IMG/VR virus record: IMGVR_UViG_3300035670_000732 | Coordinates: 1 to 35,596 of that record | Origin: a virus | Length of the DNA stretch: 35,596 bases | Direction: 5' to 3' (one strand) | Shown: positions 29,475 through 34,202 of the stretch, one piece after another | Position numbering within the stretch: the stretch's first letter is position 1 | Layout: each line of letters begins with the position of its first letter | Position numbers and translations under genes: made by a program | The notes under the pieces: generated by a model | The model's input: only the letters and a program-made list of their open reading frames with translations | Databases searched by the model: none | Told to the model about the DNA's origin: nothing

Positions 29475-29960
29475 TCAGATCTTCACGAAGAAAGCCTCGT
29501 CGCGCACCACCTGTACGCCGTATGCGGCGGCCTTTTCGGCATTGGTTTTGGCCAGGGCGAGCAGTGCTTTTTTGTCGACTTCGACCTTCACGCGCTTCAG
29601 CTTGCTGTCCACCGTGTTGCCTACTTTGTCCCAATCCCAGTCCGGGAGCAGGTCCAGCTTTTCCGGGCCCACGCGGAATCCGAATTGTCCGACGCCCATC
29701 TTCACGGATTTTGCATCCTCAAACATTTCCGGGTTTTCATCGGCATACTGCTTCAGCAGCGCGTAGCTGGCATCGAGCTGTTGTTTGTAGGCTTCCAGGT
29801 CTTCGCGGTAGCGCGTTTCAATCTCAAGGACTTCAAGGCGCTTCTGCGATTCGATAGCTTCCAGGGAAGCCGTCGCAGCGGCATATTCTGCCATCGCCTC
29901 CAGGGCCTGCACGCGGTCGAGTTTTCTGGTCTTCGTTTTGTTCTTGACAGTCGTACTCAT
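29475..29960 (-). CDS. gam: Host-nuclease inhibitor Gam (Mu Gam-like)
   Basis: 161 residues from ATG 29960. The coiled-coil N-terminal half ('YAAATASLEAIESQKRLEVLEIETRYREDLEAYKQQL') and the signature 'VKMGVGQFGFRVGPEKLDLLPDWDWDKV' match Mu Gam, which is about 174 residues. Gam dimers coat DNA ends like Ku and block host exonucleases during transposition. It lies directly downstream of the MuB-like ATPase, as expected. Confidence 0.9.
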   Translation of the reverse strand: MSTTVKNKTKTRKLDRVQALEAMAEYAAATASLEAIESQKRLEVLEIETRYREDLEAYKQQLDASYALLKQYADENPEMFEDAKSVKMGVGQFGFRVGPEKLDLLPDWDWDKVGNTVDSKLKRVKVEVDKKALLALAKTNAEKAAAYGVQVVRDEAFFVKI

Positions 29961-29982
29961 ATAGTGATAGATTAAGGAGTGA

Positions 29983-30912
29983 CTACACAACTTCTGCCGC
30001 TTCGCCCTGGGCAGCCTCTGCGCGCAGCAGTTCGCGCTGTACGGCGCGCTTTACGCGGCGCAGATCTTCCACCACCAGGTAGCTGCGGTTTTGGATCATC
30101 ACCTGGCGCGGCTCGCACTCATCGAAGATGGTTTTAGCCTGGCCTTTCTCCGTAAGGCCGTTGGCCTCGCAGATCGCCGTCACATCGGAGAGTGTAGCAC
30201 CAACCAGGTGGATGAAGTTGCGGCCGAAGCGGCTGTCGATCTCGTCGAAGCCCTTCATCTGGAACTTCACGCCGCGTTTGATCTCCTTCTCCAGGTTGTC
30301 GGTGCCCATTACCACCATGCCCAGCTGTTCTTCCAGCTCGTTGTAGAAGGTAATGATTGCACGCAGGGCAGCAGGGCGGAGTTTATCGGCCTCGTCGATG
30401 ATGAGCAGCGGGCGGAAGCGGGCCCGGGCTTTGAAGAAGCTCACAATGCTCATTACCATCTCATCCGTATGGATGTACCCGCGGCCAGGATCAATACCCA
30501 GGGTGCGGCAGAGGTTGAGCAGGAATTCCCGGCGGCCCCATTCGCGAGCCTGCAGCAGGTAGACCCCGCTTTTCTGTGCGGATACGTAGGCTTTTGAGCT
30601 GGCGGTTTTGCCGGAGCCTGCCCGGTGCGACACGGCCATGAACAAGCTGGCGGTGCGGGCATCTTCATAGACGCGGTGCAGCAGTCGGGTATTGGTGATC
30701 TCCACCAGTTGCCAGCCATCTGGGCGCCATTGCAAGCCGGCGGCAATCTTTTCCCACACGCCGGAGCGCACCTGGTCGTGCTTACCGTTTACTACCAGGC
30801 TGATACTGGCGTCCGATACGCCGCACTTTACGGCTACTTTATTGTAGCTCCCCAGGCGGTTCTTTTCTTCTTCGATCAGGAGGGCGAGCTCCTGTTTCTG
30901 TTGAGCAGTCAT
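29983..30912 (-). CDS. MuB-like AAA+ ATPase, target-DNA activator
   Basis: 309 residues, the size of MuB (312). N-terminal HTH (about 20-60, 'NKVAVKCGVSDASISLVVNGKHD'), then AAA: Walker A 'SHRAGSGKT' (95-103), Walker B 'LLIIDEADK' (169-177), and a C-terminal helical domain. It binds target DNA and stimulates transposase A, giving target immunity. It is separated from the transposase gene by a glucosaminidase gene and a structured noncoding region. Confidence 0.92.
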   Translation of the reverse strand: MTAQQKQELALLIEEEKNRLGSYNKVAVKCGVSDASISLVVNGKHDQVRSGVWEKIAAGLQWRPDGWQLVEITNTRLLHRVYEDARTASLFMAVSHRAGSGKTASSKAYVSAQKSGVYLLQAREWGRREFLLNLCRTLGIDPGRGYIHTDEMVMSIVSFFKARARFRPLLIIDEADKLRPAALRAIITFYNELEEQLGMVVMGTDNLEKEIKRGVKFQMKGFDEIDSRFGRNFIHLVGATLSDVTAICEANGLTEKGQAKTIFDECEPRQVMIQNRSYLVVEDLRRVKRAVQRELLRAEAAQGEAAEVV

Positions 30913-30915
30913 AGA

Positions 30916-31737
30916 TTACTTTTGAGAGGTTATGAAATGTTTTCCTTTGTCGAGTTGGTGCAGATCGTAGCGCTCAATGATGCGCTTGAGTGCAGCAGCG
31001 TAGCTTTTGTTTGTGGCATATCCGGAAGCCTGCAGGCCATCTGCCCAGCACTTGTAATCATTTCCACACTGGGAGATGTACTTGGCATAGCGCCAATCCG
31101 GATTACTCAGCAAAAGGCTGTGCTGCCTCCAGCTTTCCCAGGCGGTTTGGTGCTTCAGGAAGAAGTCTTTGTGGCTGTCGTCGGTATAGTTGGCGCAATG
31201 GCCAGGGCGGCAGCTGCGCTCCTTACACTTGATGCCGAAATGGTTGTTGAGCTCACGCGCCAGCTTGGAAGTGCCGCCGGCAGTTTCCAGAATGCCCTGG
31301 GCCATTTTCACTGACGCCGGGATGCCGTATTTCTCATGCTCTGCCCTGGCCACGTGCTGGAAACGGATGATGTAGCGGATGTTCCGTGCATCTTCATCAG
31401 ATTCAGCGCGCAGGAGGTGTGTTTTGCTCTCTACTGATACCGGGCGCCGGGTAATTGCCGGGGCTGATTTGGTGGCAGCGTTCACCGCAGGCGCGGGCAT
31501 GCTGGTCATGGCCAGCGCAACAGCCTCAAACTTTTCAGGACCAGCGGCAGGCGCTGCGGCAATCTGTTCGGGCTGGTTGAGCGCATGTGCCACGCCGATG
31601 ATCAGCACGGCCACAAAGCCCAGGACCATCACAAAGCCCTCCGGGGTGAAATTGAACTGGAGCCAGAGGTCCCCGCCTTTGTACATTGCGACGCGCGCCA
31701 TAGGCTCGTCGTTTTGGTGGTTGTTGAATTGCTTCAT
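30916..31737 (-). CDS. Membrane-anchored glucosaminidase (peptidoglycan hydrolase) in early operon
   Basis: 273 residues. One TM helix (about 32-52, 'EGFVMVLGFVAVLIIGVAHAL'), an Ala/Pro-rich spacer (55-105), then a glucosaminidase/Flg-type domain (about 135-265): 'EKYGIPASVKMAQGILETAGGTSKLARELNNHFGIKC' with the catalytic Glu in 'ILETAGG', then 'SWRQHSLLLSN'. The usual 'ESxxGxSxLA...N.FGIK' motif is well kept. It is 3 nt upstream of the MuB gene in the early operon, an unusual location for a wall hydrolase. It might act in lysis or in remodelling the wall in lysogens. Confidence 0.85.
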   Translation of the reverse strand: MKQFNNHQNDEPMARVAMYKGGDLWLQFNFTPEGFVMVLGFVAVLIIGVAHALNQPEQIAAAPAAGPEKFEAVALAMTSMPAPAVNAATKSAPAITRRPVSVESKTHLLRAESDEDARNIRYIIRFQHVARAEHEKYGIPASVKMAQGILETAGGTSKLARELNNHFGIKCKERSCRPGHCANYTDDSHKDFFLKHQTAWESWRQHSLLLSNPDWRYAKYISQCGNDYKCWADGLQASGYATNKSYAAALKRIIERYDLHQLDKGKHFITSQK

Positions 31738-31764
31738 TTTGGATTACAGTTTGTTAGTGAAAAT

Positions 31765-31789
31765 GCAGCCCCGCCCTCTGCGGGGCTGC
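31765..31789 (-). terminator. GC-rich hairpin before the glucosaminidase gene
   Basis: GCAGCCCCGC (31765-31774) and GCGGGGCTGC (31780-31789) form a perfect 10-bp stem with a 5-nt loop. On the minus strand it is followed by ATTTTCAC, a weak U-tract, 27 nt before the start codon. It could attenuate transcription between transposase and downstream early genes. Confidence 0.65.
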
Positions 31790-31836
31790 CTTGCGTCGCC
31801 TAAGCGAACAAAAACGTGTTGCGTCTTTTCATGGCG

Positions 31837-31866
31837 GCGAGCAGTGGCCGAAGCCACCCTGCTCGC
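31837..31866 (-). ncRNA. UUCG-capped hairpin in noncoding region
   Basis: On the minus strand GCGAGCA-GG-GTGGC-UUCG-GCCAC-UGCUCGC forms 12 base pairs with a 2-nt bulge and a stable UUCG tetraloop. Such loops mark structured RNAs. No coding role is visible. It may be part of one RNA with the tRNA-like element. Confidence 0.55.
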
Positions 31867-31967
31867 TGAAAGTCCATGATACTCGATTCTTTGAATCGGG
31901 ACCAGGAGGTGTGGCAGCTATGCACACCACACACTCCCAGCTTACCCTACGTCACAATGAAAAATTG

Positions 31968-32089
31968 CGGGGAAGGCAGGATTCGAACCTGCGAAGCTAC
32001 CTGTCTTGTTATGGGGCAATCATGGCGACCATTTTAAGACCTGCTTCCGAACGGGGTCGGAGACCTTCTCTACATCCCCAACTTTCCCC
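31968..32089 (-). ncRNA. tRNA-like element (T-arm and acceptor stem, 122 nt)
   Basis: On the minus strand GCAGG-TTCGAAT-CCTGC is a perfect canonical T-arm (5-bp stem, 7-nt loop). It is followed by CTTCCCCG, which pairs with CGGGGAA about 115 nt upstream to form an acceptor-like stem. Between them are a 5-bp stem TCCGA/TCGGA with a 6-nt loop and long-range pairs GAAGC/GCTTC, GTCTT/AAGAC and ATGG/CCAT. No normal D-arm or anticodon loop fits, and 122 nt is too long for an ordinary tRNA. It may be a tRNA mimic, a decayed tRNA with an insertion, or a tmRNA-like RNA lacking its usual parts. It follows the transposase gene. Confidence 0.5.
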
Positions 32090-32138
32090 GGAGCCTTTGC
32101 CCCGGGGCCTAACTTCCAACAGTATGAAAGACTCTCTC

Positions 32139-34202
32139 TTAGTACATGCTTCGGATATCGATATCCACTTCGTCGTCTTCGTCGTCTCTGGCGCTGGTAT
32201 TGCCCACCGGCACCGTGACAAGTACTTTGGCTTTGCCGGTATCCTTCCACTCGCCGATGCGCTCTGTGAGCCATTCGTTTTCGGCGCTGGAGGCTGCGGC
32301 TTTATCGGTATAGCTGCCCAGGAGCAGCTCCACTTCTGATCCTGCTTTCGTGATCGCTTCAAGGTCAGCCTTGCGGCGCTCCTCCAGGTCTTTCAGGCGG
32401 GCTTTCATCTTGCCCGTTTTGCGATCGGCGCCAGGTCCGTACATCTGTACCTTGCGCTGCTCATGCGCTTCGCCCAGGTACTTACGGTTTACGTCTTCGC
32501 TGGCTTCGAATAGGTACACCGTGCTCAGGTCGTCCATGTCGTAGCAAATAGCCACGTCACGATAGTGAGAAATTGTGCTATACTCCTGCACCGTGTACAT
32601 ATACTCGATGCGCTGTATTTCGGTCTTGATCAGGCCCTGTGAGCGAAGGCGTACCCGCTTTTCCAGGCCAAAGAGCTCGACAAATGTCCAAGGCTCTACG
32701 GTGGTGGTATGTGGGCGCTCGCATTGTGCGTGCAGCTCACGCGGGCTCAGCTCGATGGACGCATATTTGCGGCTGTAGTGGCTCAATGGCGTAGACCTGT
32801 ATGCCTCGATGATCCGATTTGCCTCCTGGAAGGCTGCGTCGAAATCCCAGCCATCCTTATTGGCCTTACGCTGCATGTGCGCCAGGTACTCCGCAGAGCG
32901 GTGCGCATAATCCCGGCGGCTCTGGATGCCTTCGCCGTAGTAATAGTCGCTGTCCTGCATGAAGACCGTCTGCAGCGTGCCAAACATGCGCTCGATGCGC
33001 GCTTTGCCGGTGGCTGTGCTGGTTTTTGTTACCTGCATGCCTTCGCGCAGCAGCCTGCGCTCGACGGTTTCCCATTCCGGGGTGTTGTGGCCCGGGAACT
33101 TATCCGCTACCAGCTCGTAAGGCAGGTATCCGGAGACGGCAACGGCCATTTTGATCGCGCAGATCCAGCCCCAGCGGTCTTCTTTAGTATCCAGGTGCCA
33201 GCCCAGGATGTCGCCGGAATACACATCGCGCACGGCGATGATGTATAGGAACTCCTGGCGCCCGTCCTTGCCTTTGTGGCCGATGAGGTTGACCCGTGTA
33301 CCGTCCGCCTGCCAGCAGTCGCCGGCGAACATGGCGTTCTCTACCGGGATATAGCCCTTGTACATGCCGCCACGGCGGCCATTGCGGCCAAAACGCCCAT
33401 CGGCAGTTAGGTACTTGGTGAAAGGCTTGGCAAGCTCGTTGTTGAACCAGCTCACCGACGGCTTCGGCTTTACGGCCAGCTCGCACAGAAAGCGAAGCTT
33501 CCGGATGATGTGGCTGTTCGTGTAGTTCTGCGGCATGTTGCGCATCTGGAACAACCAGGCGACGATCTCCGGATCATCGTATTTCTTCGCGTTGCGGTTG
33601 CCCAGCCGGGGCAGGTCAATCACTTCCGTAATCGCCGCCCCGCCCTGGATGACCTTGAGAACCTTGTCTTTCAAAATGCGGTGTGTGCTGGGCAGGTAAG
33701 GCACGCCGGCGTGCGTGATGTCTTGGACAAACTCCACATAGAAGCTCGCCCGGCGCACATCGTAGCCGGAATCGCGCACATAATCAATTGCTGCCTGAAG
33801 CACCGCAGCTGCCTTTGCAAGCTGCACCGTTTTCGCCTCCGGATAGCCCGGATAAGCGTGCATATAATCGCGGTAGCCATGTTCTACCGCTTGCCGGATC
33901 ACATCCATCCATTTGCCGCGAGGCACCAGGGCGCCACCGCCGCGGAGCTCATCCGCCGGCGGCAGCTGCGCCTGATAACGGGGAGGGATCCTTTTGTAAT
34001 CGTAGTAGTACACCCCGTCCACTTTAGCCCAGCGCCAGCTTATACCGGTGTCTGGTGGGAATTTGGATGTGGCTTTTTTGGGGAGGCTTTCTTTGAAGCG
34101 GGACCGGGCTATACGGATATACTCGCTCGACAGCTTACAGTTTGCCATAAGCATTTTCTCTGACACCCAGATTTCCCCGCGCTTGCGCAACACGTCTTTC
34201 AT
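32139..34202 (-). CDS. MuA-like DDE transposase
   Basis: 687 residues (MuA is 663). The N-terminal DNA-binding region (1-75) includes 'EYIRIARSRFKESLP' and a winged-helix type 'ISWRWAKVDGVYYYDY'. The catalytic RNase H fold has Asp300 ('CWQADGT'), Asp367 ('ELVADKFPGH') and Glu404 ('GKARIERMFG'); the D-D spacing of 67 equals MuA Asp269-Asp336, though D-E is shorter. The beta-barrel domain follows, and the C-terminus is coiled, charged and Asp-rich, a probable MuB-contact region. It cuts and joins phage ends. It lies 2 nt from the Ner-like gene stop. Confidence 0.95.
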   Translation of the reverse strand: MKDVLRKRGEIWVSEKMLMANCKLSSEYIRIARSRFKESLPKKATSKFPPDTGISWRWAKVDGVYYYDYKRIPPRYQAQLPPADELRGGGALVPRGKWMDVIRQAVEHGYRDYMHAYPGYPEAKTVQLAKAAAVLQAAIDYVRDSGYDVRRASFYVEFVQDITHAGVPYLPSTHRILKDKVLKVIQGGAAITEVIDLPRLGNRNAKKYDDPEIVAWLFQMRNMPQNYTNSHIIRKLRFLCELAVKPKPSVSWFNNELAKPFTKYLTADGRFGRNGRRGGMYKGYIPVENAMFAGDCWQADGTRVNLIGHKGKDGRQEFLYIIAVRDVYSGDILGWHLDTKEDRWGWICAIKMAVAVSGYLPYELVADKFPGHNTPEWETVERRLLREGMQVTKTSTATGKARIERMFGTLQTVFMQDSDYYYGEGIQSRRDYAHRSAEYLAHMQRKANKDGWDFDAAFQEANRIIEAYRSTPLSHYSRKYASIELSPRELHAQCERPHTTTVEPWTFVELFGLEKRVRLRSQGLIKTEIQRIEYMYTVQEYSTISHYRDVAICYDMDDLSTVYLFEASEDVNRKYLGEAHEQRKVQMYGPGADRKTGKMKARLKDLEERRKADLEAITKAGSEVELLLGSYTDKAAASSAENEWLTERIGEWKDTGKAKVLVTVPVGNTSARDDEDDEVDIDIRSMY

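Follow-up and report, generated by a model that had tools for sequence, protein, structure and literature searches.

Why a phage should carry a tRNA-like RNA directly behind its transposase gene is the question raised by the IMG/VR virus record IMGVR_UViG_3300035670_000732, which was analyzed over positions 1 to 35,596 (35,596 bases, hereafter the window). A Pfam search revealed a Mu-like gene content, comprising a transposase, a MuB-like AAA ATPase, Gam, Mu portal, and Mu F. The MuA-like transposase gene lies on the minus strand (32139..34202) and has 63 related loci; its rve match (E 2e-7, 31.6 bits) is slightly below the Pfam cut-off of 32.6. On the same strand follow a glucosaminidase gene (30916..31737; PF01832, E 8.5e-29), the MuB-like AAA ATPase gene (29983..30912; AAA_22, E 2.9e-13), and the Gam gene (29475-29990). 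The gap of 401 bases between the MuA and glucosaminidase genes (31738-32138) houses the tRNA-like RNA, which begins 59 nt past the MuA stop codon and ends 231 nt ahead of the next gene, with the glucosaminidase gene standing between it and MuB. Judging from its strand and its neighbors MuA, MuB, and Gam, the RNA should belong to the early transcript. By eye, no second tRNA-like element or T-arm was found in the 230 nt downstream. Two strong minus-strand hairpins lie between the RNA and the glucosaminidase gene (31845-31770), the first formed by GCGAGCAG...CTGCTCGC with a TTCG loop and the second by CAGCCCCGC...GCGGGGCTG, and they could serve as transcript terminators or protectors.

In the tRNA register, the RNA comprises 112 nt on the minus strand (31968..32079), with G73 as the discriminator at 31968. 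The 5' strand of the acceptor is GGGGATG (32073..32079), followed by UA at 32072-32071, which corresponds to tRNA positions 8-9. The minimum-energy fold continues with a D-like hairpin, GAGA-AGG-TCTC, that has GG inside (32060..32070), an anticodon-like hairpin, CGA-CCCCGT-TCG (32048..32059), a 55-nt arm in the place of the variable arm (31993..32047), and the T-arm GCAGG-TTCGAAT-CCTGC (31976..31992), before the 3' strand of the acceptor, CTTCCCC (31969..31975). The T-arm has the 7-nt TTCRANY loop and the 5-bp stem of a tRNA, with perfect pairing, and is the only strict T-arm on either strand of the window. GGGGATG and CTTCCCC form six of seven acceptor pairs, giving 11 of 12 pairs in the acceptor and T stack around a middle of 80 nt. 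This resembles the stack of approximately 12 bp with a T-loop expected of RNase P and RNase Z substrates. The anticodon arm of a tRNA has a 5-bp stem and a 7-nt loop, whereas the window fold has 3 bp and a 6-nt loop in this place. The RNA is tRNA-shaped and probably unable to decode. The loop of the 55-nt arm includes a tiny reading frame (32032-32009, minus strand; ATG GTC GCC ATG ATT GCC CCA TAA), probably by chance.

The original prediction of a tRNA-like RNA after the transposase gene was borne out by a real element on the minus strand, and its canonical T-arm with a TTCGAAT loop was correctly described. The additional stems that it pointed out, GAAGC/GCTTC and GTCTT/AAGAC, are present in both minimum-energy folds and form the 55-nt arm. 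Its account of the acceptor, the fold, and their origin needs correction. The proposed acceptor, CGGGGAA with TTCCCCG, does pair at all seven positions (32084..32090 with 31974-31968, in a fold of 124 nt), but only with an extra C (31975) between the T-stem and the acceptor, a one-base spacer that tRNAs do not have; the Rfam alignment follows the spacer-free GGGGATG register, and the boundary drawn at 32089 is too short because this acceptor requires position 32090. Contrary to the statement that the RNA does not fold as an ordinary tRNA, a cloverleaf of sorts is present, with the additional stems located where a class II tRNA has its variable arm. The suggestion that these stems are designed rather than decayed is not upheld for the window copy. 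The fold energy has a z-score of -2.12 for the 124-nt version and only -0.88 for the 112-nt form, which is ordinary for its composition (30 of 200 shuffles were as good), and no homologs on which covariation could be assessed were found for the middle of the RNA, including the 55-nt arm.

The Rfam tRNA model (RF00005) matched 32079-31968 with 25.1 bits (E 0.0055 in 501 bases searched), below the gathering score of 29. The whole window has no Rfam match at gathering score, and ARAGORN found no tRNA in it. Strict T-arms arise by chance at a mean of 0.125 per dinucleotide-shuffled window, and at 0.085 if a partner forming at least 6/7 acceptor pairs is required within 130 nt. Set against the latter rate, the single window copy is suggestive and not overwhelming, and it becomes convincing through its relatives. 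A small tmRNA-like RNA, one of three functions originally considered, was rejected because ARAGORN found no tmRNA and Rfam RF00023 gave no match at the element even at E up to 10. The recent insertion of a known host tRNA is unsupported; in nucleotide searches of phages and plasmids, matches spanned at most about 60 bases, near the T-arm and the 3' end, in assorted tRNAs or unannotated DNA.

Relatives were collected through the transposase. With the window MuA as a query, viral contigs yielded two relatives (L002/L004 and L003/L005) and bacterial genomes five loci (L006-L010), and an alignment of seven MuA sequences found 63 loci in viral contigs; a search for related loci by the window MuB returned nothing. 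In a set of 67 Mu-like loci, from which L009 was excluded as a copy of L008, 111 strict T-arms are on the MuA strand versus three on the opposite strand, counts that are not fully independent because near-duplicate loci remain (L010/L038, L008/L044, and L061/L062). Two of the three opposite-strand T-arms sit in L025, where ARAGORN calls tRNAs too. At least one strict T-arm is present on the MuA strand in 43 of the 67 loci. The other 24 have none there, including L004, the closest relative (57% MuA identity), so the elements are dispensable.

Many of these T-arms belong to miniature elements of 43 nt (mini-tRNAs), which consist of an 11-12 bp acceptor and T stack, a T-loop, and a linker bearing GG, and which have neither a D-stem nor an anticodon arm. 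The mini-tRNA of L043 (6183-6225), for example, reads TCCCA, the linker AACGGTTTTTT, GGAGCGG, the loop TTCGATT, CCGCTCC, TGGGA, and A, then CA. Twelve of 60 distinct candidates were removed by eye as chance hits or fragments of larger elements. Among the 48 remaining, contiguous pairs counted outward from the T-loop number 12 in 24, 11 in 12, and 13 in one, and a bulge or mismatch interrupts the stack in 11. In tRNA, the GG of the D-loop contacts the T-loop at the elbow, and the linker GG is found in 80 of 80 mini-tRNAs of the final set described below. Covariation is strong in both types. Type I has double changes at seven of 12 pairs (33 double-change cells), with a score of 0.325 where slid controls reach no more than 0.121; type II has them at nine of 12 pairs (61 cells), with a score of 0.808 where slid controls reach no more than 0.124. 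Since the scanner that selected the mini-tRNAs required at least 11 of 12 pairs, the paired percentages in these two analyses are inflated by construction, with less effect on strand and position counts. The outermost pair of type II is broken in 11 of 17 mini-tRNAs, leaving mostly an 11-bp stack. Fold, covariation, strand, and gene-border position of the class are computed results, and the class of tRNA-like elements as a whole is, to judge from its alignments, under selection for the fold. The covariation check proposed at the outset gave a clear answer for the class; for the middle of the window copy, no homolog was found.

A covariance model, R1, was built on 27 type I mini-tRNAs. Over 70 sources and both strands, it gave 76 matches with E no higher than 1, and every one of them is on the MuA strand. 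It matched 26 of 34 records or genomes, nearly always in the early region, and one additional mini-tRNA distant from the early cluster was present in each of G001, G002, and G003. R1 is unreliable for type II, as it missed both mini-tRNAs of phage fF4 that the T-arm scan found. The set of 80 mini-tRNAs comprises the 76 R1 matches without four weak or partial ones (L026 8411, L071 5850, L077 2456, and L057 8625) and with eight of type II. These elements lie at gene borders. The stop codon of an upstream ORF of at least 50 aa is found at -12 to 80 nt in 51 of 80 (median 2 nt), versus 345 of 1600 random positions near a stop codon, and an ATG opening an ORF follows within 120 nt in 77 of 80 (median 19 nt). 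Only one of 80 is inside an ORF of at least 80 aa, versus 896 of 1600 random positions of the same regions. The window has no R1 match at E up to 1, the model being one of 43 nt with a linker of 9-14 nt. The window copy does belong to the wider class of elements that combine a T-arm and an acceptor, whatever their middle, and lie between early genes on the MuA strand. It has in common with this class the strand, the gene border, the T-arm, the acceptor, and a D-like hairpin bearing GG, and differs from the mini-tRNAs in its long flanks and in being solitary.

The mini-tRNAs were also sought independently of MuA. A DNA pattern derived from them occurred in 38 stretches of viral contigs and led to 14 new contigs, five of which have a MuA recognized by alignment. 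By eye, L102 and L110 have an ORF of approximately 660 aa at the place of MuA and a similar early operon, whereas L089 and L094 are not Mu-like in appearance. A repeat of host genomes was rejected as the source, because none of 395 genomes from the class containing Aquimarina has the exact pattern, which argues against a common host repeat. A covariance search of 199 genomes was set aside as evidence, since it scored few candidates per genome and included no positive control. A blastn search with one mini-tRNA gave no match in the phage collection. The original prediction had named a host tRNA fragment unique to one strain as a finding that would count against it; the class is nothing of this kind, and the single window copy may be a decayed tRNA.

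Larger elements retain the acceptor and T-arm, but the size of the middle varies freely, from 23-25 nt in L028 and L033 to 80-111 nt in L072, L078, L069, and L051. Compared with shuffled sequences, the fold of the L069 element is clearly better (z -3.42), whereas those of L051 and L072 are not (z -0.72 and -0.66). In L026, L028, L030, and L033, elements directly follow MuA, just as the window copy does, and a large element precedes MuA in several loci. Named phages carry both kinds. Flavobacterium phage fF4 has two type II mini-tRNAs on the early strand (one of the two at 2399-2441), one directly before the transposase gene and the other in a later gap, and Porphyromonas phage007a_Bg4 has a larger element immediately before the transposase gene. 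The hankyphage element (1767-1849 of BK010646) is called tRNA-Arg(CCT) by ARAGORN and is annotated as tRNA-Arg in four of the 17 records listed. A hankyphage variant of 84.5% identity keeps the cloverleaf with stem letters that change in step, but the loop of its anticodon arm is GCAA and ARAGORN calls no tRNA, suggesting that the element is retained for its shape rather than for decoding. On this sequence comparison, decoding by the hankyphage "tRNA-Arg" is unlikely. Neither the hankyphage paper (PMC12135933) nor the fF4 paper (PMC7761591) uses the word "tRNA" in its main text, and passages of the P. gingivalis paper treat tRNA genes as insertion sites (PMC10367356). RNA-seq data are available for jmh43, a Bacteroides thetaiotaomicron lysogen of the hankyphage (PMC12135933).

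The 112-nt RNA of the window is most likely a large member of this class of tRNA-like elements at gene borders. For the class, we tentatively propose, at somewhat less than an even chance, that in transposable phages of Bacteroidota the repeated mini-tRNAs of about 43 nt, which lack an anticodon, punctuate the early operon for RNase P and RNase Z, and that the window RNA, at the border of MuA, is an overgrown representative of them. That the window copy itself is a large intercistronic punctuation element, one that would be cut by host RNase P and probably by RNase Z, we hold to be an evenly balanced proposition. The element would fold on the early polycistronic mRNA, and a cut by host RNase P at the 5' border would release the end of the mRNA upstream (here that of MuA). 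RNase Z or another 3' tRNA nuclease of the host would cut past the discriminator and leave the downstream mRNA with a short leader. We infer that both cleavages could determine how abundant or stable A is relative to the genes that follow, and that the window copy would work like the mini-tRNAs. The conserved part, namely the 11-12 bp stack, the T-loop, and the GG resembling that of a D-loop, is what tRNA-processing enzymes measure in a tRNA, and the middle would be free to vary because decoding is not needed. Part of a published account describes RNase P as measuring the acceptor and T stack from the elbow, with a T-loop-like loop required and the D-loop apparently dispensable (PMC4919913). 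A minimal stack with an elbow between a stop codon and a start codon suggests a cutting mark as the simplest role. Of the three functions originally considered, an RNase P/Z processing tag thus fits best, as related phages have elements between early genes on the MuA strand right after stop codons. Its confinement to the border of A and B does not hold, since the window element lies between A and the glucosaminidase gene that precedes B, and the class is far broader.

The strongest competing explanation, though an unlikely one, is that the window copy is a decayed phage tRNA of class II type with an expanded variable region, now functionless whatever the mini-tRNAs of other phages do. Its scores below the ARAGORN and Rfam gathering thresholds, the acceptor mismatch, the ordinary fold energy, and the failure to find a homolog would all be expected of such a relic. 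Odd tRNAs occur in other phages too, and behind the Gam-like gene of the relative L005 there are degenerate tRNA-like sequences, among them one like tRNA-Met(CAT). Several observations speak against punctuation: the window copy is solitary, with 59 and 231 nt to its neighboring genes where the mini-tRNAs are tightly placed; the elements are absent from L004 and other loci; G001, G002, and G003 each have a mini-tRNA distant from the early cluster; and a recognized MuA was present in none of nine contigs with large odd tRNA-like RNAs, as expected of ordinary decayed phage tRNAs. Decay would, however, have left the T-arm perfect and the acceptor nearly so while the middle came to resemble no tRNA, and it does not account for a strand and gene border that match those of the elements in L026, L028, L030, and L033, or for the selection on the fold in the class as a whole. 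A freed RNA acting in trans, as a tRNA mimic that binds or occupies host tRNA enzymes or tRNA-directed defense nucleases, is the third of the functions originally considered and is quite improbable. The retention of a tRNA shape without a usable anticodon and the multiple copies per genome in many loci would suit it, but a trans-acting RNA needs no position exactly between a stop and a start codon, so that the placement at gene borders is left unexplained, and anticodon nucleases would find no anticodon loop as bait. Least probable is a stable structure between cistrons that stays uncut and protects mRNA ends or controls how the following gene is translated, by reinitiation or ribosome loading, because, despite the tight spacing to stop as well as start codons, any hairpin would do for this purpose, whereas the conserved T-loop letters, GG, and 11-12 bp stack point to recognition as a tRNA.

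Tentative as it is, punctuation by tRNA-like elements has parallels in known systems. In mitochondria, according to a passage in PMC8601606, tRNAs between the genes of polycistronic transcripts mark the sites of cutting. Those marks are working tRNAs, whereas the phage marks are non-decoding and mostly miniature, and their cleavage is predicted. The mammalian elements mascRNA and menRNA are found once per lncRNA, at the 3' end. As described in part of PMC11693755, these elements of MALAT1 and MEN-beta are likewise non-decoding and tRNA-like, with RNase P cleavage forming the RNA end. The phage elements differ in that they recur between coding genes. Host RNase P is also known to cut phage RNAs, and a section of PMC11143913 names M3 RNA, the C4 antisense RNA of P1/P7, and T4 gene 32 mRNA; cleavage of the phage mini-tRNAs by the same host enzyme is a prediction. 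The RNAs named there are single cases for which we found no conserved repeated element in print, whereas the elements described here form a covarying family in many phages. The hankyphage "tRNA-Arg" is, like the window RNA, a tRNA-like RNA on the early strand of a transposable phage of Bacteroidota, but is placed before MuA instead of after it. A search of open-licence articles in PubMed Central found no paper describing such tRNA-like punctuation in phages. If the proposal is true, it would represent tRNA punctuation in a phage, with the tRNA reduced to what processing enzymes measure, and would supply RNase P and RNase Z with minimal substrates of natural origin. It would also account for the annotated hankyphage "tRNAs" that are probably unable to decode, and would offer small processing tags for work in Bacteroidota.

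Several further tRNA-like sequences were observed in these phages. L014, L016, L019, L021, L022, and L023, phage contigs without a recognized MuA, carry tRNA-like RNAs with a normal acceptor and T-arm and a very long or odd middle, for which ARAGORN is silent or reports "unknown" only. In L026 (4840-4872), after a short ORF behind MuA, there is a near-continuous helix with a T-loop, no linker, and an encoded CCA (GGGAGC-GTGGG-TTCGACT-CCCGC-C-GCTCCC-ACCA), which is either a still smaller form or another kind of hairpin. Three tRNA-like sequences follow the Gam-like gene in L005 (14585-14877, equal to L003 8585-8877): one ending in TTCTTCCCCGCA, one consisting of the 5' half of a tRNA continued by a terminator-like hairpin, and one that ARAGORN calls tRNA-Met(CAT). 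A second element after MuA has an anticodon-type loop CTCATAA (CAT) in L030, L033, and apparently L028; the tRNA-Met of L005 also has CAT, and these phages may truly carry a CAT tRNA as recurrent cargo.
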